Source of the DNA: a virus
Length of the DNA: 38,468 nt
Direction: 5' to 3' (one strand)
IMG/VR virus record: IMGVR_UViG_3300007509_000020
Coordinates: 1-38,468 of that record
The notes below the pieces were generated by a model, which made no database searches, was not told the DNA's origin, and was given only the letters and a program-made list of their open reading frames with translations. Shown piece by piece: positions 2,142 to 34,137 of this stretch. The stretch's first letter is position 1, and every line of letters begins with the position of its first letter. The position numbers were made by a program, and so were the translations under genes.

Positions 2142-2282
2142 CTACCAGTTCTCTTTTTCCTGTTGTTGTTTTTTCTTATCCGCCTTTTTCTTCAAATGCC
2201 CAATAAGCATTGAAACGTAAACCTCTCTCTCCCACGGCATCATGTTTTCTAGCTCCGTTAAACTATACTGATGTTCTTGCAT
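2142..2282 (-). CDS. gp51-like / tail-chaperone C-terminal ORF (46 aa minimum)
   Basis: A short frame encodes MQEHQYSLTELENMMPWERE and continues to a Lys/Gln-rich end finishing ENW. The pattern of a helix, then SLTELENMMPWERE, then a charged tail resembles the T half of tail assembly chaperone pairs and small gp51-position proteins of T4-like marine phages. The reading frame continues upstream of this ATG without a stop through 19 more codons (RLTLSQESLENFYKTNFLL) to the end of gp26, where it lies in the -1 frame. The ATG at 2282 lacks a clear Shine-Dalgarno and would remove that helical segment, so expression as a gp26 fusion is more plausible than independent initiation. It is followed 3 nt later by the large putative tape-measure gene. 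Confidence 0.7.
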   Translation of the reverse strand: MQEHQYSLTELENMMPWEREVYVSMLIGHLKKKADKKKQQQEKENW

Positions 2283-2294
2283 AAGCAAGAAATT

Positions 2295-2333
2295 AGTCTT
2301 GTAAAAGTTTTCAAGACTCTCCTGAGAAAGAGT
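2295..2333 (-). other. Hairpin candidates downstream of the slippery site
   Basis: Two mutually exclusive stems follow the heptamer. The first, 5 nt downstream, pairs ACTCT (2333-2329) with AGAGT (2320-2316) around an 8-nt loop. The second pairs AGTCTTG (2318-2312) with CAAGACT (2301-2295), a perfect 7-bp stem about 20 nt downstream whose AAAACTTTT interior could add pairs. Either could stimulate frameshifting; the first has the usual spacing, the second is the stronger stem. No folding energy was computed. Confidence 0.45.
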
Positions 2334-3019
2334 TAACCGAAAAAATGTTCGTATCCATTAATACTAATAGCATTATCGGTCTCACAATGTGGACATTTAT
2401 ATTCCACCGTGTGTTCTATACGAGGCATTTGTTGAAAAAAGTCTCTCATTTTCTCCATAACTTCTATTGGAAGATCGTCTATAAAAGAAGCAACCTCTTC
2501 TAAAGGCTCTTCCTCAATACTAAATGTCTCTTCCCCATCAACAACATAATCAATACATTTAGCAATTATTTCTTCATCTTCTAATTCCTCTATCTGCGAT
2601 GTAACCATAGCCGTAGGCCACTTTAATTGTACGCCTATTTCTTCGTTAATCTTGATAAAGTTATCGGGTGGATTGTCTAAACCCTTGACTTTCATCTCAT
2701 CAAGTCTTAGTTCATAAGGTGTAGTTTTACTACAGCTTCCACATGAAAGAGTAAAGTCTGCTACTTCACCTACAGATTTAGATCTTATTTTTATAAAAAG
2801 ATCTTGTAGGTCAAACATTGTAAGGTCGTGTCCATTAATTCCAGAACAGTTTGTTACAATTTGAGCACATGCGTTTACCATGTCCTTAAAGTCTTCAGCT
2901 TCGTTTGCTAACATAAGAATTTTTTCTTCTTTAACTAAGAAAGGCCTGAATCTAATCGGCTCTCCCGTTGAAGCTAAGTTTCCTTCAAATGTTGGTGTTT
3001 CTACTCTAGGTAGTGTCAT
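2333..3019 (-). CDS. 26: Baseplate hub subunit / tail assembly chaperone gp26-like
   Basis: This 228-residue protein matches the T4 gp26 baseplate family: the N-terminus has LPRVETPTFE, then RFRPFLVKEEKILMLANE (residues 23-40), a signature I recognise from cyanophage gp26. Two CxxC pairs, C93/C96 (CGSC) and C209/C212 (CPHC), suggest a zinc-ribbon-like site. T4 gp26 (208 aa) assists baseplate hub assembly; its relatives include chaperones that coat the tape measure. The start has a good GGAG Shine-Dalgarno (3030-3027). It follows gp54 with a 22-bp gap. The protein ends NGYEHFFG directly after a slippery heptamer, so a fraction of ribosomes probably extend it. A near-consensus late box (GATAAATA on the minus strand, 3040-3033) lies upstream but would start transcription inside the Shine-Dalgarno, so it is doubtful. 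Confidence 0.88.
   Translation of the reverse strand: MTLPRVETPTFEGNLASTGEPIRFRPFLVKEEKILMLANEAEDFKDMVNACAQIVTNCSGINGHDLTMFDLQDLFIKIRSKSVGEVADFTLSCGSCSKTTPYELRLDEMKVKGLDNPPDNFIKINEEIGVQLKWPTAMVTSQIEELEDEEIIAKCIDYVVDGEETFSIEEEPLEEVASFIDDLPIEVMEKMRDFFQQMPRIEHTVEYKCPHCETDNAISINGYEHFFG
2339..2345 (-). promoter_or_regulatory. Slippery heptamer TTTTTTC at the 3' end of gp26
   Basis: On the minus strand the sequence reads CAT TTT TTC GGT TAA in the gp26 frame. The heptamer T TTT TTC is a canonical X XXY YYZ slippery site; tandem tRNAs on TTT and TTC can re-pair on TTT TTT after a one-base slip back, entering the gp51-like frame. The zero-frame stop follows two codons later. Confidence 0.75.
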
Positions 3020-3041: not shown

Positions 3042-3827
3042 TTAATCCCCTTTATATTTTTTCCACCGGCTGTAAGTGTCGGCGTCAATCTGGTTTGTGT
3101 AAGCAGCATATCCAAGTAAACGAGGATCTAGTTCTGCTTTTTGCTTTTCAGCAATATCTTTATTTAAATCTATATCAATGGTTCTAGACCTCCAGTATGC
3201 CGAGGATATAATTAAAGTGGTTCTTGCAACACTAACACCACCCATTGCCAATGGTATTAAGTTTAATACCTTGGGGGTAACTTCCATTAGCTCCCATGAT
3301 GCTGTTACATTGTTTTGTAAATCCAAAGAATTAATCCAGACTATACCATGAGTGTCATCTGGATATGCAACTTGTTTTGATGTGGTATCCACACAAAGGT
3401 CAATCCAAGCTTCAAATAAATGTCTTAATTGCCAATGTCTATCTGTTAAGAATGTAATATTAATTTCGTTTCCTAAAAAGTTGACATTATTGTTTCTCAT
3501 AAAATTCCAATTACCAAGTGGAACCTCTTTATTTGTTAATACCATACCAGGTATTTGAACTTCTTCACATAGTAAAGCAGCCTCCATTGGAGCCGACGCA
3601 CTATTAGTCCCTCCGGTGTTTATGGTGCCTCCAGAGACGATTTGTGGCATGCTCTTGGTTGTCATTGGGTCTGATTTAATTTTATTCCATTCGCCTTCTA
3701 AAGCATTAGGAAATTGAAATTGACATTCAAACCTTTCAGTCCTTGCAAAGGACATTCCTCTAAATTTCGCTATGAAATTCTCAAACTTATTTAGGACTTT
3801 TTGGTCTTTTACTCTACTATCTGACAT
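3042..3827 (-). CDS. 54: Baseplate tail tube initiator gp54-like
   Basis: The 261-residue protein carries the tail-tube fold signature ITFLTDRHWQLRHLFEAWID (residues about 125-145), typical of the T4 gp19/gp48/gp54 tube family, preceded by the long N-terminal arm MSDSRVKDQKVLNKFENFIA. T4 gp54 (320 aa) forms the first ring on the hub from which tube polymerisation starts. The shorter length is within what marine T4-like phages show. Its ATG overlaps the upstream stop by one base (TAATG), indicating translational coupling. The plus-strand neighbour gp48 is the partner ring protein, which supports gp54 rather than the tube protein gp19; gp19 remains the alternative. Confidence 0.75.
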   Translation of the reverse strand: MSDSRVKDQKVLNKFENFIAKFRGMSFARTERFECQFQFPNALEGEWNKIKSDPMTTKSMPQIVSGGTINTGGTNSASAPMEAALLCEEVQIPGMVLTNKEVPLGNWNFMRNNNVNFLGNEINITFLTDRHWQLRHLFEAWIDLCVDTTSKQVAYPDDTHGIVWINSLDLQNNVTASWELMEVTPKVLNLIPLAMGGVSVARTTLIISSAYWRSRTIDIDLNKDIAEKQKAELDPRLLGYAAYTNQIDADTYSRWKKYKGD

Positions 3828-17487: not shown

Positions 17488-20400
17488 ATGGCATTAAATT
17501 TAAACGCATCACCATATTACGACGATTTTAGCGACTATAAGAACTTTCATAGAGTTCTTTTTAAGCCTGGTGTTGCAGTACAAGCAAGAGAACTTACACA
17601 ACTACAATCAATTTTACAAGACCAGTTAGACAAAGGTTTTGGATTTATGATTCAAGACGGTGCAGTAGTTGCTGGGTGTGCCGAACAAATACTAGAAAGA
17701 CATTGGGTTAAAATTAAAGACACAGACGCCTCCTCGGCTGCTGTTGATAATTCTACATTAGCAAACTATGTAGGGGACACACTAACAGGTGGCACTTCTG
17801 GTTTAACAGCAGTTATAGCACATACAGAACAAGGAACTGAAAGCGGAGCACCTGTAACAAAACAATTATATTTTAATTATAATACATCATCTACTACTTA
17901 TGACCATTTTACAACAGGCGAAACTCTAACAGTAACGTCAACAGATTCCTCAAGAAATGGTGATACATTCATTGTTCACACAGGAACAACAACAAACGAA
18001 CAAGCCAAATACTTTGGTAAAACACATGAAATAATTTTAGAGCCAGGCATTATTTATGCAAGAGGCCATTTTATTAGAACAACAAGAATTCATAACTTAA
18101 TGGATAGATGGTCTAAGTATAATGAAAAATTAGTTGGTTTCCAATTATATGAAGCAGCCCAGACATCGGCAATAGATACAAGTTTACTAGATCCTGCACA
18201 AGGGTCTTATAACTATAACGCTCCTGGAGCAGATAGAATGCTCCTTATGGCTACTTTAAGATCTTTCCATCCAGATATACCTAAACCTGATGATTGGTAT
18301 TTGTATTTAAGAATTCAAGATGGTGGAATTATTAGAAATAAAGTTAAAGATAATCCACTCTCAGGTGTAGGACAAGTTTTAGCAAACAGAACTTACGACG
18401 AATCAGGTAATTATACAGTACATGGAATGACAGTAGATGTTAGAGAACATTTACAAAACGCAGCTAATACCAATGGTGGTGTTTACACAGCAGCTAAAAG
18501 CGGAAATAGAGAAGGACTTGTATTAGGAATTGCACCAGGTAAATCTTACGTTGGTGGTTTTAAACGAACATTACAATCAACCAAGCGTCTAGTTATAAGA
18601 AAACCTGAAGGTGTAGTAACTAAAGATGGTATGCCAATATCAACTTCTTTTGGTAATTACACAGAAATAAGTCGTGTATCAGGATTTTGGGATATAGATG
18701 GTGGCGGAACAATAGATTTATATGACACAGTACAAGACGGAGCAGCATCAGCAGCAGGAACAAAAATAGGAACAGCAAAAGCTAGACATATTGTTTATAA
18801 AAGTGGAACAGCAGGAGCAAATGCTGCAGTATATAAATTATATTTGTATGATATCCATTTAGTTAGTGGTGAATTTGGTGACGTCAAAGGCGTAAGATAT
18901 GAAAACACCGCAGCAGATGGTATAGCTAATACAGTATTAACAAGTTCAAAAGCAACAATTAAAGAAGCATCAGCAAATAAAATGTTGTTTGCCATGCCTT
19001 ACAATCATATTAAAACATTAAAGGCAGCAGCTGGCGGAACATATGACACCACGTATCAATATACAAAAGAATTTGATGTTACATTAAATGCATCAGGAGC
19101 TTATGTAGACCTGACACTAACAGGCGACGAAACTTTCCCTTACGATACATCAAACACAGAATTAACAGACACTATTAAATCAGCCAATATTATAGCAATT
19201 GCACAAGATGGTTTTGATTTAACAACAGGAAATAACAGAACAGCAGGACAGTACATTGACCTAACCTCTAGTAACTCTAACGCATCAGTTAAGTGTTCTT
19301 CATCTACATCAATGAGGATTGATTTAGGAACAACAGTAACAACAGCAGGCGGACAGAGTGATAAAGTTAGAGTTTATGTGAATGTATTAAAAACAGACAC
19401 AACACCTGTAGCAAAAGCATTAGTACAAAATGTTTACATTAAAGTAGATACAAACTCAAACGCTAATGGCTCAACAGGAGAAATGAATTTAGGAGTTTCA
19501 GATGGTTACAAACTTGAAGGAGTTTGGGCAAGCTCATCTGCTTACTCGGTAGCAGCAGCAGACGAAGTTACAGATCAATTTAGATTTGATAATGGACAAA
19601 GAGATAACTATTATGGCCATGCCAAGATATTTAAGAAGTCTACAGCAACAGTAAATCTAGCAACAAACAGATATGTGGTTGTTAAGTTTTCATACTTTAC
19701 ACATACAGTTGCATCTGGTGGCGGAACTTTTATGTGTTTAGATAGTTATCCAGTAGACGATACTACTACACCAGCAGCCAATACAATAAGAACAGAAGAA
19801 CTACCAATTTACAGATCAAGTGTAATAGGAGATTATGATTTAAGAAATACTATTGACTTCCGTCCAAGGATGACAGACACAGCAACACCTAATGCTACAT
19901 TAGGATCAGCTCCTATAAATCCAGACGCTTTAGAAGAAATTGATAGACCAGGAAATGGAATTACATTCCCGGTACCAGTTAAAACATTTACAACAGACTT
20001 TTCATATTGGCAGGGCAAAAAATTAAGAGTAATATGTGACTTTGATGGTAAAATTAGACAAGTAGAGGGAGCATACGCAGACGATCCTATACTACCGGTA
20101 GAGCCTGAGAAATCCATGACCCTGGCCACTATTAACTTACCACCTTATCCTTGTTTAGGAACAACAGCGGCCAAGTTAGTAGGAAGATCAGACTTAGGTG
20201 CTACAGTACATCAAGTGGCATACAAACGTTTTACAATGCAAGATATTAGTACGTTAGAAACTCGTATTAAAAACTTAGAGTATTACGCTTCACTAAATTT
20301 ATTAGAAACATACGCAAAAGACCAAACAATTACAAATGCATCAGGCACAGACAGATTTAAAAATGGCATCTTAGTAGATCCATTTACAGGACATAATGTA

Positions 20401-23400
20401 GGAGCAGTATTAGATCCGGATTATAAAATATCAATTGATCCGGTTAAGAAACATGCAAGACCGTTTTTCTCAATGGAAAATATATCATTAAGAACATTTA
20501 CTGATATAGGAGCGGCTAATTCAACGGCTACATTAGCACAAACAGGTAGAACAATTTCACTACCGTATGACATTGTAGAATTTAGATCACAGCAAGAAGC
20601 TTCACAAATAGAGAATTTAGCAAAAGAATTAACGTTCCACTATGTTGGGGATATGGTTTTAACACCAAACCTAGATAACTTTGTGGCAACAGATGTCCAA
20701 CCAGCAGTTACTAAAAACTTTGATGGTAACTACGATGCATGGGAGAACATGTCAAACGCATGGGGCACGCAATGGGGCGCCTGGGAAAACAGCGGAGCAG
20801 CTAACGTAGTATCGACGGTATCACAAGAGTTAAATACGCATGGAACAAACAATAGTGGAGAAGGAACAAGCAATAGCTCACTATTTACAACGACAACAAC
20901 AGCACAATCACAAACAAGAACAGGCGTAGGTATAGATATAAGCGCTTCAACTCAGACACAGAGTTTAGGTGAAAGTGTAGTAGATGTATCTTTTAGTCCA
21001 TTTATGAGAGAAGTAAATGTTGTATTTAATTGTATAAGATTAAAACCAAACACAGTAGTTTATCCATTCTTTGATGGAGAAGATGTATCAGCACACGTTA
21101 CAAACTCAGCAGGAACATTGGGTGGAACAATAACAACAGATGCAAATGGCACATGCTTTGGACAATTTTTAATTCCTTCAGGACAATTTAAAACAGGTGT
21201 CAAGGTATTTAAATTAACAGACGATGTAAATAACAACGATGCATTAGCAAGAACAACTTCAACTGCTAATTATGAATCTTCAGGATTAAGACAAAAAACA
21301 CAAGACACAATACTTGCTCTTAAAACAGCAAACGTAACACCGACATATCACTCAGGAGATAGAGTGATGACAGATACAAGTGTTGAAATTTCAATAGGAG
21401 CAGGCACACCGTTGCCCCCTCCTCCAGCACCTGTTATTATACACGAAATTACAAACGTCGTAGGAGCACCAGGACCCACAGGAGAGCCTGGACCGGTAGG
21501 ACAAACAGGCGACGCTGGCCCACCAGGCCCACCTGGTTCTCCAGGAACCCCTGCAGAAGCAGTAGACTTATCAGACTGGCAAGCCCAGACAGATGCAGCT
21601 GTTGCAGCCGGATTAGCATCTGTTGAACAACTTATAGAAGACGTTGCTAATATGCCTCCAGGCCCACCCGGACCAACAGGCCCACCTGGACCAACAGGAT
21701 TGCCAGGATTACCAGGCCCAACAGGAGCAGAAGGCCCACCAGGAGCTCCTCATGTAATAGAAACTGTAATTACTACTATCCCGGATATCACAGTAGTACC
21801 GGCATTCGAGCCTGTAGAAGTTATGCCAGACATGACTTGTCTAGCACCCACAAATGAGCCTGTAGGCGTTACTTGGAATACGGGAGTAACAGATGGCCAA
21901 TTGGATTTTATGGAAGAGTTAGATATCTCTTTGGCCATGAATGGAGGTGGTGGGTATAATCCATGGGTTGATCCACTAGCACAAACATTTACAGTCCACG
22001 GAGTCCCTGGCGGAGTATTTATTTCAGACGTCGAGATTTACTTTAAAACAAAAGGAACCAATGGTGTTACAATGGAACTTAGAGAAGTGGTTAATGGAGT
22101 ACCCGGACCTAGAACCATTCCTAATGGAATAAAATATTTACCAGCAGCACAAATTAATTTATCATCAACATCAGGTGGAACTACAACATATACTCCAACT
22201 GTATTTAGTTTCCCAGATCCTGTTTACTTAAAAAATAATACAGAATATTGTTTTGTTCCAAAACCAGAGAACGACGACAAAGGATTTGAGATTTGGATAG
22301 CACAATTAGGTGAAAACCAATACGGAACAACAACAAGAATTTCAAAACAACCTGCAGCAGGCATGATGTTCAGCTCAGCTAACGATAGAACATGGAGCCC
22401 ACATCAAAACAAAGACATAATGTTTAAAATAAGGAGATGTAGGTTTAAGAAGGATCAAGCATATTCAGGACACTTAATAACTGAACCCATTGATTGGTTA
22501 AACTTTACAGATACAAGTTGGTCTTTTGCTGCTAAAAAATTCAGTCCAGGTAAAAACCTAGTTGGATTTACACCTACAATTACAGCAGGTGGATCGGGTT
22601 ATAGCTCAGCACCAGCTGTTACAGTTACAAACACAGGCACAGGCGGAACAGGATTAGCATTAACAGCAGTAATTTCAGGAGGAGCAGTAACAGGATTAAC
22701 AGTTACAAACCCAGGATCGGGTTATAATATTGCACCAACAATAACAATAGCTGCCGGAACAACAACAGCTACAGCAACATTAAGACTTAATAAAGGTAGA
22801 GTAGACTTTTGGGATAACTTATACAACTATGCCCACACAGTTCTTAAATCTGGACATTTTACAGTAGGAGATGTTGTTGGTAACGCAGACGGTTATGCAA
22901 CAATAAGTGGGTTTACAGATAAAGTAGTTAATGATATAGCACCTAACTTTGGCATATTACAACCAGGAGAAGGAACAACAGCTACTTGCAAACTAGCATT
23001 AACAGATACAGGAGCAGGGTCAGCCAATACAACTTCATACCAAGACGTAGATTTTGGAACAACACATACACTAGCAAAAGAGAAAACAATTTACAGTAGA
23101 ACAAATGAAGTAGTCAACTATTCGACTACACAGACAGCAAGAGCTAAGATAACATTCTCTACATTTAATGATAACGTTTCTCCAATTATTGAGATAGATC
23201 AAGCAGACTTGTTATGTATTAAAAACGAAGTCAACAATACAGCTACAGGAGAAGATGGTAGAGTAGGAGGCTCAGCATCATCTAGATATATTTCTAGACG
23301 TGTTGTATTAGAAGAAGGTATGGACGCAGAAGATTTACAGGTTTATTTAGAAGCAGCAATTCCAAACACAGGAAGCATTAAAGTTTATGGTAAATTCCAA

Positions 23401-23913
23401 AACGCAGCAGATCCTGGAAACTTCCAAGAAGATTTAAATTGGACAGAACTAACAGCTAATACTTCACCAGCAGAACAGACAGAAGGATTTGCAGAATATA
23501 GTTATTCAATACCTGCACGTGGTTCAAACGCAGCAGGAACTAACGCATCTACAAGTATTTTTGAATATGTACTAAGTTCTGTTACAGCAATTTCAGTTGG
23601 TACAGCAGGAAGTGGATATTCAACAGCCACCGTAACAATATCTGGCGGTGGTGGTTTTGGAGCAACAGCAAAAGCAGAGATTAGTAGTGGAACAATCAGT
23701 GGAATTAAAGTTACTAACCCTGGAAGAGGATATACATCCGCTCCCACGGTTACTATAACAGGAGATGGCTCTTCAGCAGCAGCCACATCAACGATAGGAA
23801 ACATTACACACACAGGATATAAGACTTTTGCAGTTAAGATTGTGCCACTTTCAACAGATACCACTAAGGTTCCTAAGTTTAAGGACTTACGAGCCATAGC
23901 ATTACAGGTTTAA
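17488..23913 (+). CDS. Giant virion protein (DUF4815-type, gp10 position) with collagen-like blocks
   Basis: This 2141-residue protein begins with the DUF4815-like signature [40 protein letters not shown], seen in very large virion proteins of T4-like marine phages. Residues about 830-1260 form the conserved central part ([30 protein letters not shown]). Two Gly-Pro-rich collagen-like blocks lie at about 1326-1354 and 1389-1420, separated by a helical segment ([20 protein letters not shown]) that could trimerise. A beta-rich region follows ([20 protein letters not shown], about 1492), then two Gly/Tyr repeat modules (about 1694-1767, 2030-2104). Its place after gp8 corresponds to T4 gp9/gp10 (fibre attachment and wedge pin). 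It probably forms a trimeric baseplate appendage carrying receptor-binding modules. Function is inferred. Confidence 0.85.
21463..21549 (+). repeat. Collagen-like block 1 in the giant protein
   Basis: Encodes a run of G-x-y triplets with [20 protein letters not shown] as its core, about nine or ten triplets. Such repeats in phage tail proteins are known to fold as triple helices. Confidence 0.85.
21652..21747 (+). repeat. Collagen-like block 2 in the giant protein
   Basis: Encodes [20 protein letters not shown] followed by [12 protein letters not shown], about ten G-x-y triplets with many prolines in the y position, the position used by prolyl hydroxylases in collagen. Separated from block 1 by a 35-residue helical linker. 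Confidence 0.87.
22567..22788 (+). repeat. Gly/Tyr repeat module, giant protein copy 1
   Basis: Two units with cores [20 protein letters not shown] and [16 protein letters not shown], inserted between [15 protein letters not shown] and [13 protein letters not shown]. Confidence 0.72.
23575..23800 (+). repeat. Gly/Tyr repeat module, giant protein copy 2
   Basis: Two units with cores [20 protein letters not shown] and [20 protein letters not shown] near the C-terminus of the giant protein. Confidence 0.72.
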
Positions 23914-30232: not shown

Positions 30233-30901
30233 TCATTTAGTACCGATAGCCATAAACCTATCGTAATAAACCTTTCCATTCCAATCATAATAAAATTGTT
30301 TGACTTTACCCGTGTAGGTCGTATCTTTTAGTCCTACATTTTCAATCAATTTCTTTTCACTATCCACACAATTAATTCCATACATCTCTTCTATAACATT
30401 AGAAGATTGGCAAGCAAATATTGCATGTTTGTTTGCTGTCCTAAGATCATTTAGTGGATACATCTGTTCAGCACCCATTGTAATTACTATATCTACCTTC
30501 AATTGATTTAACTCATCAAAAGCGAATGGAATGTCTAAGTTCCAGTGATTTATTTTGATGTATTCTTCTGTAATATAATGCTTATTAAACACCTTAGAGA
30601 GCTCTAAAGCTTCGTTATCTATGTCAACTAGGTGTAATTCTCCCACGGACAAGTTCTCACATAGTAAAGGAACTAAAGGTATCCCTAACCAGCTATTTAA
30701 TACAAGAATATTAAATTGCTCTTCTTTTAAATAGTTATCTAAACTTTTTTGTAGCTCTTCAACTAACCAAATGGCTCCCTCCATAGTGTTTGGATTAAGA
30801 GCTTGCCTAAAGTCGTCGTGCTTGTGTTTCATTTCATGCTCGACTTTGGCCAAACCTTCTCCCCAATATTGCATGCTGTTTAAAAAATTAAAATTTAACA
30901 T
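30233..30901 (-). CDS. SAM-dependent methyltransferase-like protein
   Basis: The product from ATG 30901 is about 222 residues (an in-frame ATG at 30937 adds 12). The region FNILVLNSWLGIPLVPLLCE (about 65-84) followed by LSVGELHLVDIDNEALELSK has the Rossmann nucleotide-binding pattern of class I methyltransferases, with the acidic end of strand 2 at VDID. KVDIVITMGAEQMYPLNDLR then fits strand 4. The usual GxGxG loop is degenerate (NSWLG). The GAAAAGAAG before ATG 30901 supports that start. It is last in the minus-strand glycosyltransferase operon, so it may modify a sugar or small molecule; substrate unknown. Confidence 0.6.
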   Translation of the reverse strand: MLNFNFLNSMQYWGEGLAKVEHEMKHKHDDFRQALNPNTMEGAIWLVEELQKSLDNYLKEEQFNILVLNSWLGIPLVPLLCENLSVGELHLVDIDNEALELSKVFNKHYITEEYIKINHWNLDIPFAFDELNQLKVDIVITMGAEQMYPLNDLRTANKHAIFACQSSNVIEEMYGINCVDSEKKLIENVGLKDTTYTGKVKQFYYDWNGKVYYDRFMAIGTK

Positions 30902-31577
30902 CTTCTTTTCTTCCCATTGAATCAAATAAACAGACATATGGTATTTGTCTGTAGACTTGTTTTTCTATATCATGAGGAAATATGTACCCATGATTGTAAC
31001 TGTAAAACCATCCTATAGGAAAGTATTTAATTCTTGCCACACCTTTGTGGCTAAAGAAATTATCTATTCCCCGATAGTACCATAAGATCTTATCTAAGTG
31101 TGTTTTAAAATAAAGAGTTATGTTCTCTTTATCTAAGTTATCGTTCCATCTTAATATACTAGAATTAAGTTCTGTAAATCTGTGTGGAACATGTTCTGTT
31201 TCTTTCTTCATTGTTTCTAAATCGTGCCAATGTGTTTGGCCAAAACATAAACAATCCTCAGGATCAAAGTTTACAATGTCATCTATATTCTTTTGGATAA
31301 TAATATCCAAATCAAAGAATAAATTGTCTCCTTTCTTCCTGACAACATTATCATCAAACAAGTACATCTTATTCCACCACTTTTCCATTTTGTTATCTTT
31401 TGGTAGTGGTATAACATTGACTTCTTTTTCAAGTCCTTTAGGACTTTCTGTTAAACAATGAAATGTAAAATCATAAGTTAGATGTTCTTTACACGATTCC
31501 AATATTTTATTGACGTGGTGTGAAGAATATTTCGTTCCCCATTTAACAGTATAGATATTTAAATGTTCTATGTGCAT
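30888..31577 (-). CDS. Glycosyltransferase, GT-A-like (paralogue D)
   Basis: The 229-residue protein shares three hallmarks with its operon neighbours: the N-terminal strand-loop YTVKWGTKYSSHHVNKILES (about 9-28), the DxD motif FFDLDIIIQKN (D89, D91) and the C-terminal WFYSYNHGYIFPHDIEKQVY. GT-A enzymes use DxD to bind Mn2+ and the nucleotide-sugar phosphate. The overall layout resembles small GT8/GT32-like families; acceptor unknown. It overlaps the methyltransferase-like gene by 14 nt. Cytoplasmic; no signal peptide or membrane segment is seen. Confidence 0.75.
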   Translation of the reverse strand: MHIEHLNIYTVKWGTKYSSHHVNKILESCKEHLTYDFTFHCLTESPKGLEKEVNVIPLPKDNKMEKWWNKMYLFDDNVVRKKGDNLFFDLDIIIQKNIDDIVNFDPEDCLCFGQTHWHDLETMKKETEHVPHRFTELNSSILRWNDNLDKENITLYFKTHLDKILWYYRGIDNFFSHKGVARIKYFPIGWFYSYNHGYIFPHDIEKQVYRQIPYVCLFDSMGRKEDVKF

Positions 31578-31581
31578 ATAT

Positions 31582-32394
31582 TTATTGCCAATGCTTTAAT
31601 AAGTTTGGATCAACTAACTCATTCTGTTTAACTTTTCCTCTTTCAGGTGTAGGTTGTGGTAGTAGGTCTACATTAAATACACAGAGGATAGGTGTTTCCC
31701 TGTAGATTTTTGTTTCTAAATCATCATCGTCCCAACTGCGTCCTCGGTTATACGAGTAAGCATACTCTGCTGGAAAATGATCCCATAATTTTTTGCCCCA
31801 ATTACCCCATCTCCAACTGTGATAATTGTCTGTTCCGTCTGTAAATGTAAACCAAATTTTATCCTGATGTTCTAATACATCTTGCCATATACATTCTGCT
31901 TGATCGTCGCTCCATATTTGACAACTGCCATTCGTATATGCACCATGTGATAATTTAAATCGTCTTGTTTTCATTGGCCTAGGGTCTTGCCACCATGATC
32001 TCAACTTGGTTGGGCGTTCAAAATTCCAAGTGAGTAAAGGTTCTATATCATTTTGTATGATAACATCTAAATCAAAGAATACAAATCTGCCTGTTGGTTT
32101 ATCCTCAGCAAAATTATGTGTATTGAATACCATTGTTTTAGGTCTATCCCAACATCTTGCCATGCCATATTTAAAGTCGTCTTTTTCAAACCAATACTTA
32201 GGATGTATATTAGGTATATCCGGAAAAGGAATTACTTTTATATCATCATCAAAACCTTCAGCATCATCTGTATAACAGTAGAAGTGGAAGTCGTGTTTAG
32301 GATCTGTATGTCTCCTTGCCATATTTTTTAATCGATTTACAAAATGAGGACCATATTTGCTACCCCATTTTGAACATACAATATTAACTCTCAT
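31582..32394 (-). CDS. Glycosyltransferase, GT-A-like (paralogue C)
   Basis: The 270-residue protein starts MRVNIVCSKWGSKYGPHFVN and carries FVFFDLDVIIQNDIEPLL with D108 and D110, then an insert rich in Trp/Arg (LRSWWQDPRPMKTRRFKLS) and the C-terminal EYAYSYNRGRSWDDDDLETK. HPKYWFEKD (about 64-72) is shared with the paralogue at 34118. It is clearly homologous to its operon neighbours and probably arose by duplication. The start overlaps the preceding small gene by 11 nt. Acceptor and donor are unknown. Confidence 0.77.
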   Translation of the reverse strand: MRVNIVCSKWGSKYGPHFVNRLKNMARRHTDPKHDFHFYCYTDDAEGFDDDIKVIPFPDIPNIHPKYWFEKDDFKYGMARCWDRPKTMVFNTHNFAEDKPTGRFVFFDLDVIIQNDIEPLLTWNFERPTKLRSWWQDPRPMKTRRFKLSHGAYTNGSCQIWSDDQAECIWQDVLEHQDKIWFTFTDGTDNYHSWRWGNWGKKLWDHFPAEYAYSYNRGRSWDDDDLETKIYRETPILCVFNVDLLPQPTPERGKVKQNELVDPNLLKHWQ

Positions 32395-32605
32395 AAGCTG
32401 CCCTTGCTATAACATATTTTTTAGCGTATTGTATTCCTTCTCCTGCGAGTAGATCAACAATAGCTTTACATTTTTCTTCGAACTCATTTAAATTTGAATG
32501 AACTATGATAGTAGAAAAACTTGCCTCTCTTACTAACTTAGGCAATTTACCTTCCTGTTTATCAAAATTTCCTTCTATTATAATTCCATTTTTTACTTTT
32601 AACAT
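32384..32605 (-). CDS. Small orphan protein in the GT operon (73 aa)
   Basis: Product MLKVKNGIIIEGNFDKQEGK continues with a helical C-terminal half (LNEFEEKCKAIVDLLAGEGI). It resembles no family I know. It overlaps the upstream radical-SAM-like gene by 7 nt and the downstream glycosyltransferase by 11 nt, so it is translated in the operon and unlikely to be spurious. Confidence 0.62.
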   Translation of the reverse strand: MLKVKNGIIIEGNFDKQEGKLPKLVREASFSTIIVHSNLNEFEEKCKAIVDLLAGEGIQYAKKYVIARAAYES

Positions 32606-34137
32606 ATTCCTTCCTGTTCATTATGTATTACTTGCGGGTTCAATTTTAATAAATTATTAAAGTACCCTTTATAAAAATCATTAGTAAATATAGTCTCCAA
32701 ATTATTATTACTAATATTATTCTTGTCCCAATCATATAATAGTTCTGTTTTATGTTCGGGAGATTTGTGTGCTGTTGTAACATTTGATGCTACATGTTTG
32801 CACGGAAAAACATTTCCTTCAGCGTTTAAGTAAAATTGATTTTTAAGTTTACCTTCGCATTCAACATGAGGACTAAAAACTATCTTCCTTTCTTTATATA
32901 TGTCGTCTTGTTGTACGGTTTTTAGAGTGTGAAAATCTATAAGACTATAATCAGGCATTTCCTTTTTAATCTTTTTCTTTATTGGTTTGACTTCTTCTTT
33001 CATTTCATTTTTATATACGAAGCCAGTAAATTTATGTTTCTTAGATAGTTTTTTAGCTTTTGCTAAATCTTCTACTTGTGATAAATGTGTTTGAGTATAG
33101 TGCCAAAAGACTCTACAACCTTGTTCTATTAATGCATCAGCTCTTTTCATAACTTCTTCGTCTGGATTAGATGTGTTTATGTGGATAGTTATATTACCAA
33201 TATTTTTAGCGCTTTCATTATATTTTTCATTCCACTCTGAAACAAAATTATTATAAAACAATACTCCTAAATTATTCCACCATATAAGATCATGTTCTTT
33301 TGCCTCTGTTTCCATATCAATTGCTATGCCCCAGTCAGCCATTAAGTATTGACATATCTCAATTATTTCTGGACATGTAATGGGTTCACCTACAAGAGTA
33401 ATCCTTTTAAATTTAGATCTTGTTATAAAGTCAAAGTCAAAATTATTTTCTATTAGTTTTCTTGTTAAGTGATCTTTACCATTAGACAATTCCATTTCAA
33501 CTCTTTCTGGCAAATAAGGATAAAGATCTGTTTCTCTATTATAACTTAATTCTAATTGCTCTTTTGTAAAGTCTTCATACCAATAAGGTAACACCACTAT
33601 ATCTCCATCAGTCTTTTCTGGATAGTTATGGTTTGTGTTTTGTATAAAAGAGAACTCAGGAACTTCATTACTATAAAAGGCCTCACCAAAAGAATGATGT
33701 TTAAAGGTCATATCATCTTCATGTTCATCCCATAGTGTTAATATATTCTCTGCACTCTCATTACGATTACATACATAACAAAAATTTCCGTCTTCTAATA
33801 TTAATTTATCTATACCTTTGCACTTATAGTTAAAAAATTCTGTAGGATTATTAAGTATGACATTAGGAGTTACAAATAAAGACACATCGCCTGGTTCTGT
33901 ATGTTGCATTATATCTATCTCTAACCAGTCTTTTCCGTATTTAGGAACATGGAAAGTTATACCTTGTATATAACCTTCTACCTTTTTTGTAGTTTCTAAT
34001 AACTTCATTTCATCTTCATTAGTGAATACAACGAAGTCAAAAGGATCTTCAATCAGTTTTTTCGCCTGAGTATAAAAGGCATTAATTTGCCGTTGGCTAT
34101 AATTGCTGTCTAGCTGATTAGCTATTAGTGTTACCAT
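32599..34137 (-). CDS. GT-like + degenerate radical-SAM/SPASM fusion
   Basis: The 512-residue protein has three parts. Residues 1-190 follow the neighbouring glycosyltransferases: FDFVVFTNEDEMKLL, then DVSLFVTPNVILNNP where they have FFDLDVIIQN, so the DxD is lost (T90-P91-N92). Residues about 205-380 resemble a radical-SAM core: VEMELSNGKDHLTRK stands where CxxxCxxC normally follows the strand, and ITLVGEPITCPEIIEICQYL (246-265) matches the conserved GGEP...hP...I motif. The cluster cysteines are absent. Residues about 418-512 match SPASM-type ends (FSPHVECEGKLKNQFYLNAE, GNVFPCKHV; C427, C446). Likely non-catalytic in radical chemistry; perhaps a scaffold or peptide-binding partner for the glycosyltransferases. 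Overlaps its neighbours by 20 and 7 nt. Confidence 0.68.
   Translation of the reverse strand: MVTLIANQLDSNYSQRQINAFYTQAKKLIEDPFDFVVFTNEDEMKLLETTKKVEGYIQGITFHVPKYGKDWLEIDIMQHTEPGDVSLFVTPNVILNNPTEFFNYKCKGIDKLILEDGNFCYVCNRNESAENILTLWDEHEDDMTFKHHSFGEAFYSNEVPEFSFIQNTNHNYPEKTDGDIVVLPYWYEDFTKEQLELSYNRETDLYPYLPERVEMELSNGKDHLTRKLIENNFDFDFITRSKFKRITLVGEPITCPEIIEICQYLMADWGIAIDMETEAKEHDLIWWNNLGVLFYNNFVSEWNEKYNESAKNIGNITIHINTSNPDEEVMKRADALIEQGCRVFWHYTQTHLSQVEDLAKAKKLSKKHKFTGFVYKNEMKEEVKPIKKKIKKEMPDYSLIDFHTLKTVQQDDIYKERKIVFSPHVECEGKLKNQFYLNAEGNVFPCKHVASNVTTAHKSPEHKTELLYDWDKNNISNNNLETIFTNDFYKGYFNNLLKLNPQVIHNEQEGIC

Follow-up and report, generated by a model that had tools for sequence, protein, structure and literature searches.

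Does the gp26 gene of an uncultured virus end at its stop codon, or is it also read through a programmed −1 ribosomal frameshift into the gp51-like frame that follows? We addressed this question in the 38,468-base virus record IMGVR_UViG_3300007509_000020 (the window, meaning the whole stretch of DNA analysed) and in its relatives. Judged from sequence comparison, gene 26 of this marine T4-type phage almost certainly encodes a tail-assembly chaperone and is subject to programmed −1 frameshifting, which would give rise to a 228-aa and a 292-aa form.

Slip Site and −1 Frame at the End of Gene 26

The overlapping reading frames at this locus comprise the following features:

2333–3019 (−): gp26 (228 aa; PF12322 / PHROG 150), putative short form of the tail-assembly chaperone; AlphaFold2 model with pLDDT 90.8
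2339–2345 (−): slippery heptamer T TTT TTC, in 0-frame phase (CAT TTT TTC), one codon ahead of the stop
2142–2341 (−): extension in the −1 frame, corresponding to the C-terminal domain of gp51; 65 aa beyond the two Phe; TAG at 2144–2142
2142–3019 (−): gp26-gp51 fusion of 292 aa, predicted to arise by frameshifting and corresponding to T4 gp51; alignment with the T4 gp51 profile over the junction, E = 8.9e-24

A profile search assigns gp26 to the T4_baseplate family (PF12322, E = 3.3e-56). The 3′ end of the open reading frame (ORF) reads ...GGA TAC GAA CAT TTT TTC GGT TAA, with the TAA stop codon at 2335–2333. We confirmed the original prediction that a canonical T TTT TTC stands in the correct phase near this stop: the heptamer at 2345–2339 has the X XXY YYZ form of programmed −1 sites and is read as CAT TTT TTC in the 0 frame. 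Translation of the −1 frame begins with FF|RLTLSQESLENFYKTNFLLMQEHQYSLTELENMMPWERE and finishes with ...ENW; from the slip, the sequence reads FF|RLTLSQESLENFYKTNFLLMQEHQYSLTELENMMPWEREVYVSMLIGHLKKKADKKKQQQEKENW and continues to the TAG at 2144–2142. The fusion would therefore count 227 + 65 = 292 residues, which is the length originally proposed for the product.

When read from the slip site, the extension matches PHROG 634 (baseplate hub assembly catalyst, gp51) with E = 4.5e-27. This match drops to 4.1e-18 if the extension is read only from its first start codon. The −1 frame is thus open down to 2142 and gp51-like, as had been claimed. Together with PF12322 and the alignment of the fusion with T4-clade gp51, the PHROG 634 match places the locus in the gp26/gp51 family of T4-like chaperones.

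Conservation of the Heptamer and of the −1 Reading

The original prediction called for an alignment of related gp26 regions as a check on the heptamer and the open −1 frame. A single scan with gp26 from the window found 80 loci with 34–100% identity, and more scans together with isolate records brought the collection to 208 loci, window included. The census is based on the 200 loci with a closed (complete) gp26 end. An in-phase heptamer and a gp51-like −1 extension are both kept in 192 of these, far more than chance would produce. Their heptamers have the form T TTT TT[C/T/G] and lie at most 31 nt from the stop; the second Phe codon is TTC in 139 cases, TTT in 52, and TTG in 1. In many of the 192 loci the 0 frame stops immediately after the T-run. 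In five others it extends several codons beyond the heptamer, with heptamer and −1 protein still aligned. Isolates with the in-phase heptamer include HTVC008M, S-SM2, KVP40, phiAS5, S13, Marzo, RHph_I46, phiN3, Cr30, ACP17, and Astolliot, as well as ZPAH1, P-SSM4, Vibrio 1.081.O, and S-H68. The T-run is retained even in isolates with G+C-rich surroundings (Marzo, ACP17). The eight exceptions are seven loci of the T4 clade, discussed below, and locus L208.

Around position 3749, L208 contains five T in the slippery run versus six in the near-identical genome L207. A five-T run would abolish both the gp26 stop and the frameshift. Most simply, and likely, it is a homopolymer error; otherwise it would be a natural loss.

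Codon usage was examined in 91 representatives with less than 85% nucleotide identity, all of which contain the heptamer (the eight exceptions were left out). At both heptamer-defining codons the third base is T in every representative (T fraction 1.00): the first codon is always NNT, even though it encodes several different amino acids, and the second is always TTT. For comparison, the T fraction ranges from 0.43 to 0.81 at 28 other columns of the same alignment with comparable pyrimidine-ending codons, and it is 0.27 at the third position of the A-site Phe codon. Since the control columns share phylogeny and base composition, the third-base signal reflects selection on the heptamer itself.

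The frame behind the slip is constrained as protein. Among 518 representative pairs, substitutions in codons 1–18 after the slip, which precede the conserved Met, fall by 23/20/57% on positions 1/2/3 of the −1 frame. In the following part of the gp51 domain the corresponding values are 27/7/66%. No ATG, GTG, or TTG occurs within the first 12 codons after the slip in 61 of the 91 representatives; about one-third have a possible start of this kind near the beginning of the extension. Third-position bias and scarcity of early starts mean that the gp51 domain is most simply read from the slip site. Together with the PHROG 634 match described above, this constraint also bears out the proposal that a conserved segment lies upstream of the first ATG. 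The predicted extension of gp26 into the gp51-like ORF is therefore supported by the census, by the fixed third-base T, and by the junction homology described below; −1 frameshifting that would yield both forms is very well supported.

Candidate Stimulators

Hairpins had been expected downstream of the slip, and the 70 nt that follow the heptamer in the window are indeed more structured than shuffled sequences (z = −3.8, 30 shuffles). The same holds for all representatives, with a mean z of −1.75. In the window one element stands out:

2286–2324 (−): stem-loop, candidate frameshift stimulator; approximately 14 nt past the heptamer; 13 bp interrupted by a bulge of 3 nt

This stem-loop (CAGGAGAGUCUUG...CAAGACUaauUUCUUG) is common to 26 distinct sequences of the clade of the window (CAT TTT TTC). 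In these, 96.4% of cells are paired, both partners are changed in three pairs, and none of 500 shuffles scores as high, although the stem-loop was derived from the same 26 sequences that were used to score pairing, which leans in its favour. Its spacing from the heptamer (∼14 nt) is long. Rfam and tRNA scans of the window found nothing.

Most clades carry a Shine-Dalgarno (SD)-like stretch approximately 5–14 nt upstream of the slip (mean −5.0 vs −0.4 kcal/mol); in the clade of the window this stretch is weak. Although it looks very strong elsewhere, we did not retain it as evidence of an internal stimulator, because synonymous reshuffling of the same codons still yields −4.2 kcal/mol. The signal is therefore mostly a by-product of conserved [Glu/Lys/Arg]-Gly codons.

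Gene Neighborhood and Fold

Two further genes flank gp26 and its extension:

3042–3827 (−): tail tube gene, directly upstream of gp26; PHROG 45, E = 7.7e-22
3–2138 (−): long downstream ORF in tape-measure position, assigned by position and length; >712 aa, cut by the end of the window

The order of tail tube gene, gp26/51, and long ORF is the classic chaperone layout, as in the lambda G/GT genes. This layout, with a tape-measure-like gene next, had been anticipated; the downstream ORF is placed by its position and length, and it has no PHROG or Pfam match. The gene order is the same in HTVC008M, where the tape measure is annotated, and in Cr30 the tape measure likewise follows gp51. Both of these genomes contain a short extra ORF between gp51 and the annotated tape measure.

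A lambda/HK97-type TAC fold was not detected: the AlphaFold2 model of gp26, folded separately from the extension, has no Foldseek hit in the PDB below E = 0.5, and a sequence-profile search of the PDB found nothing. The top named matches to the model in a viral library are baseplate hub proteins of the gp26 family. With no solved structure matching the gp26 model, what gp26 may share with lambda-type chaperones is, by analogy, only the way of working.

Elsewhere in the window, a run of minus-strand ORFs of 229–512 aa lies inside the baseplate and tail-fibre region (30233–34137); the three ORFs searched from this run have no PHROG match. An ORF of 2,141 aa occupies 17488–23913 on the plus strand.

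Two Genes instead of a Slip Site in the T4 Clade

In T4 (NC_000866), genes 26 and 51 are divergent neighbours. T4 gp51 is itself a member of the gp26 family (PF12322, E = 3.9e-52, residues 1–201; PHROG 150 over nearly its entire length) in which the gp26 domain is followed, within one chain, by the gp51 domain at the end. The profile of T4-clade gp51 aligns with the profile of the frameshift fusion in a single alignment that spans the junction (E = 8.9e-24); the alignment of T4 gp26 with the fusion profile stops at the slip (E = 2e-30). T4 gp26 is the equivalent of the short form, and the alignment of T4 gp51 with the fusion runs from one end to the other. Unlike the locus in the window, the T4 genes are divergent and have neither an in-phase slippery site nor a −1 extension.

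The in-phase heptamer is absent from the T4-clade loci of the census (L082, which is T4, L088, L175–L177, L179, and L180). What follows gene 26 in the −1 frame of T4 and PKO111 is gene 25. Divergent gp26/gp51 paralogues are found in L082, L088, L175–L177, L179, L209, and L210; L180 covers the end of gene 26 only and cannot show a second gp26-family gene. Makalu_002 and VAC36 have the same two-gene layout as T4. Within the census, a second gp26-family gene occurs only in T4-clade loci, so that slip site and second gene have a complementary distribution. With its genes divergent and its gp51 a gp26 paralogue with an extra end domain, T4 itself cannot frameshift at gene 26. The original prediction that the frameshift would tie T4 gp26/gp51 to the chaperone pair needs one correction here: T4 gp51 corresponds to the fusion across the junction, but T4 does not make it by frameshifting.

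We also considered T4 gp26 and gp51 as sisters of one duplication. This proposal was not retained: a first tree gives no decision, and a second groups them on one side of a branch without real support (75/54).

Alternative Readings of the Locus

Many GenBank records draw gp51 as a separate protein, and a separate CDS is annotated in HTVC008M, S-SM2, phiN3, and Cr30. An ATG does stand at the gp26 stop codon in some relatives, for example in KVP40. The gp51 part could then be a small protein of its own, initiated internally (TTG/ATG at 2288–2280) by reinitiation after the gp26 stop, with the heptamer being incidental. This is very improbable. Ahead of the conserved Met, approximately 18 codons are under constraint as protein of the −1 frame, the 61 representatives that lack an early start codon offer no place for such initiation within the first 12 codons, and inspection by eye finds no Shine-Dalgarno sequence ahead of the ATG at 2282–2280 in the window. 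Independent initiation also leaves the fixed third-position T of the heptamer unexplained, and T4 gp51 unites both domains in one chain. The possible early starts in one-third of the representatives and the ATG of KVP40 could alternatively indicate that the frameshift makes the fusion while some internal initiation yields a free gp51 domain with its own role. We regard this combination as unlikely, given that both the presence and the position of the early starts vary between clades.

Homopolymer runs are error-prone, and L207 and L208 do differ by a single T. There is nevertheless next to no chance that the T-run reflects sequencing indels in what is really one uninterrupted gp26-gp51 ORF: the run has the same phase in all 192 loci, which derive from independent assemblies and finished isolate genomes, and the 0-frame stops right behind it in many of them. 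The census thus refutes the indel explanation, and a programmed −1 frameshift remains our preferred reading.

Relation to Known Tail Chaperones

The slippery site of lambda gpG/gpGT is G GGA AAG. Xu, Hendrix & Duda reportedly described in 2004 a conserved tail-gene frameshift of long-tailed phages. Like gpG/gpGT, the locus in the window would combine a short form with a −1-extended long form, and it is flanked by the tail tube gene on one side and the tape-measure position on the other. It differs in its slippery sequence (T TTT TTC), in the CxxC pairs of gp26, and in a gp26 fold without a detectable match among solved structures.

T4 gp26 and gp51 have been listed as hub assembly chaperones, gp51 being required yet absent from the particle (PMC3004832). 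The original prediction held frameshifting to be undescribed for T4-type gp26/gp51. This part does not hold, since two papers, both citing Vladimirov, Gautam & Davidson 2022 (Virology 566:9-15), point to prior publication: one credits that study with −1 signals of the poly-T type in the TAC-N genes of T4-like phages (PMC12846349), the other with separate short and fused long chaperone genes without frameshifting in some T4-like phages (PMC10885494). As described there, those chaperones share with our locus a poly-T −1 site in the short-form gene, a long form that is extended at its C terminus, and, in some members, two genes as the alternative. No essential difference is evident from these descriptions, and the window adds a further member from an uncultured lineage. 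Likewise, a poly-T motif (GTTTTT) that is conserved and a −1 frame that is always open have led to the prediction of a −1 frameshift for the TAC locus of phage Adele, in different phage families (Vandenendeviridae/Andersonviridae; PMC12846349). The window locus is therefore a clear further example of a frameshift that is known for phage tails and reported for T4 relatives; it is not new in principle. Our own computations concern quantitative conservation, homology across the junction, and the stem-loop specific to the clade of the window.

Treatment of the gp51 part in GenBank is inconsistent. At seven of the loci it appears as an internal-start CDS, as a hypothetical protein, or is missing (S13, ACP17, ZPAH1).

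Proposed Mechanism and Implications

We infer that most ribosomes would terminate at the TAA at 2335–2333 and release the 228-aa gp26. A fraction, set by the efficiency of slippage, would move one base back at T TTT TTC, where P-site TTT and A-site TTC may re-pair with TTT TTT. The slipped ribosomes would translate on to 2142 and produce the 292-aa gp26-gp51 fusion, which probably corresponds to T4 gp51. If lambda gpG/gpGT is a guide, the two forms together may recruit subunits of the tail tube and maintain the tape measure and the hub in a state competent for assembly. The T4 clade would obtain an equivalent pair from two divergent paralogous genes, which would make duplication and recoding alternative routes.

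More tentatively, recoding and gene duplication could be interchangeable solutions in the gp26/gp51 family, a possibility that we rate at somewhat less than even. The T4 clade would have swapped an ancestral −1 frameshift for a divergent gene 51 that arose by duplication, with loss of the slippery codons, and the frameshifting clades would differ in their stimulator, with an SD-like stretch in most and the downstream stem-loop in the clade of the window. The recoding/duplication half of this proposal appears, from the citing papers, to be already published; the swap of stimulators and the quantitative codon conservation may be unpublished.

These results settle the annotation of a gene pair that is usually drawn in GenBank as two proteins or left half unannotated. 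Why the ratio of short to long form matters could also be studied in such a family, a useful natural experiment in which some members rely on recoding and others on duplicated genes.
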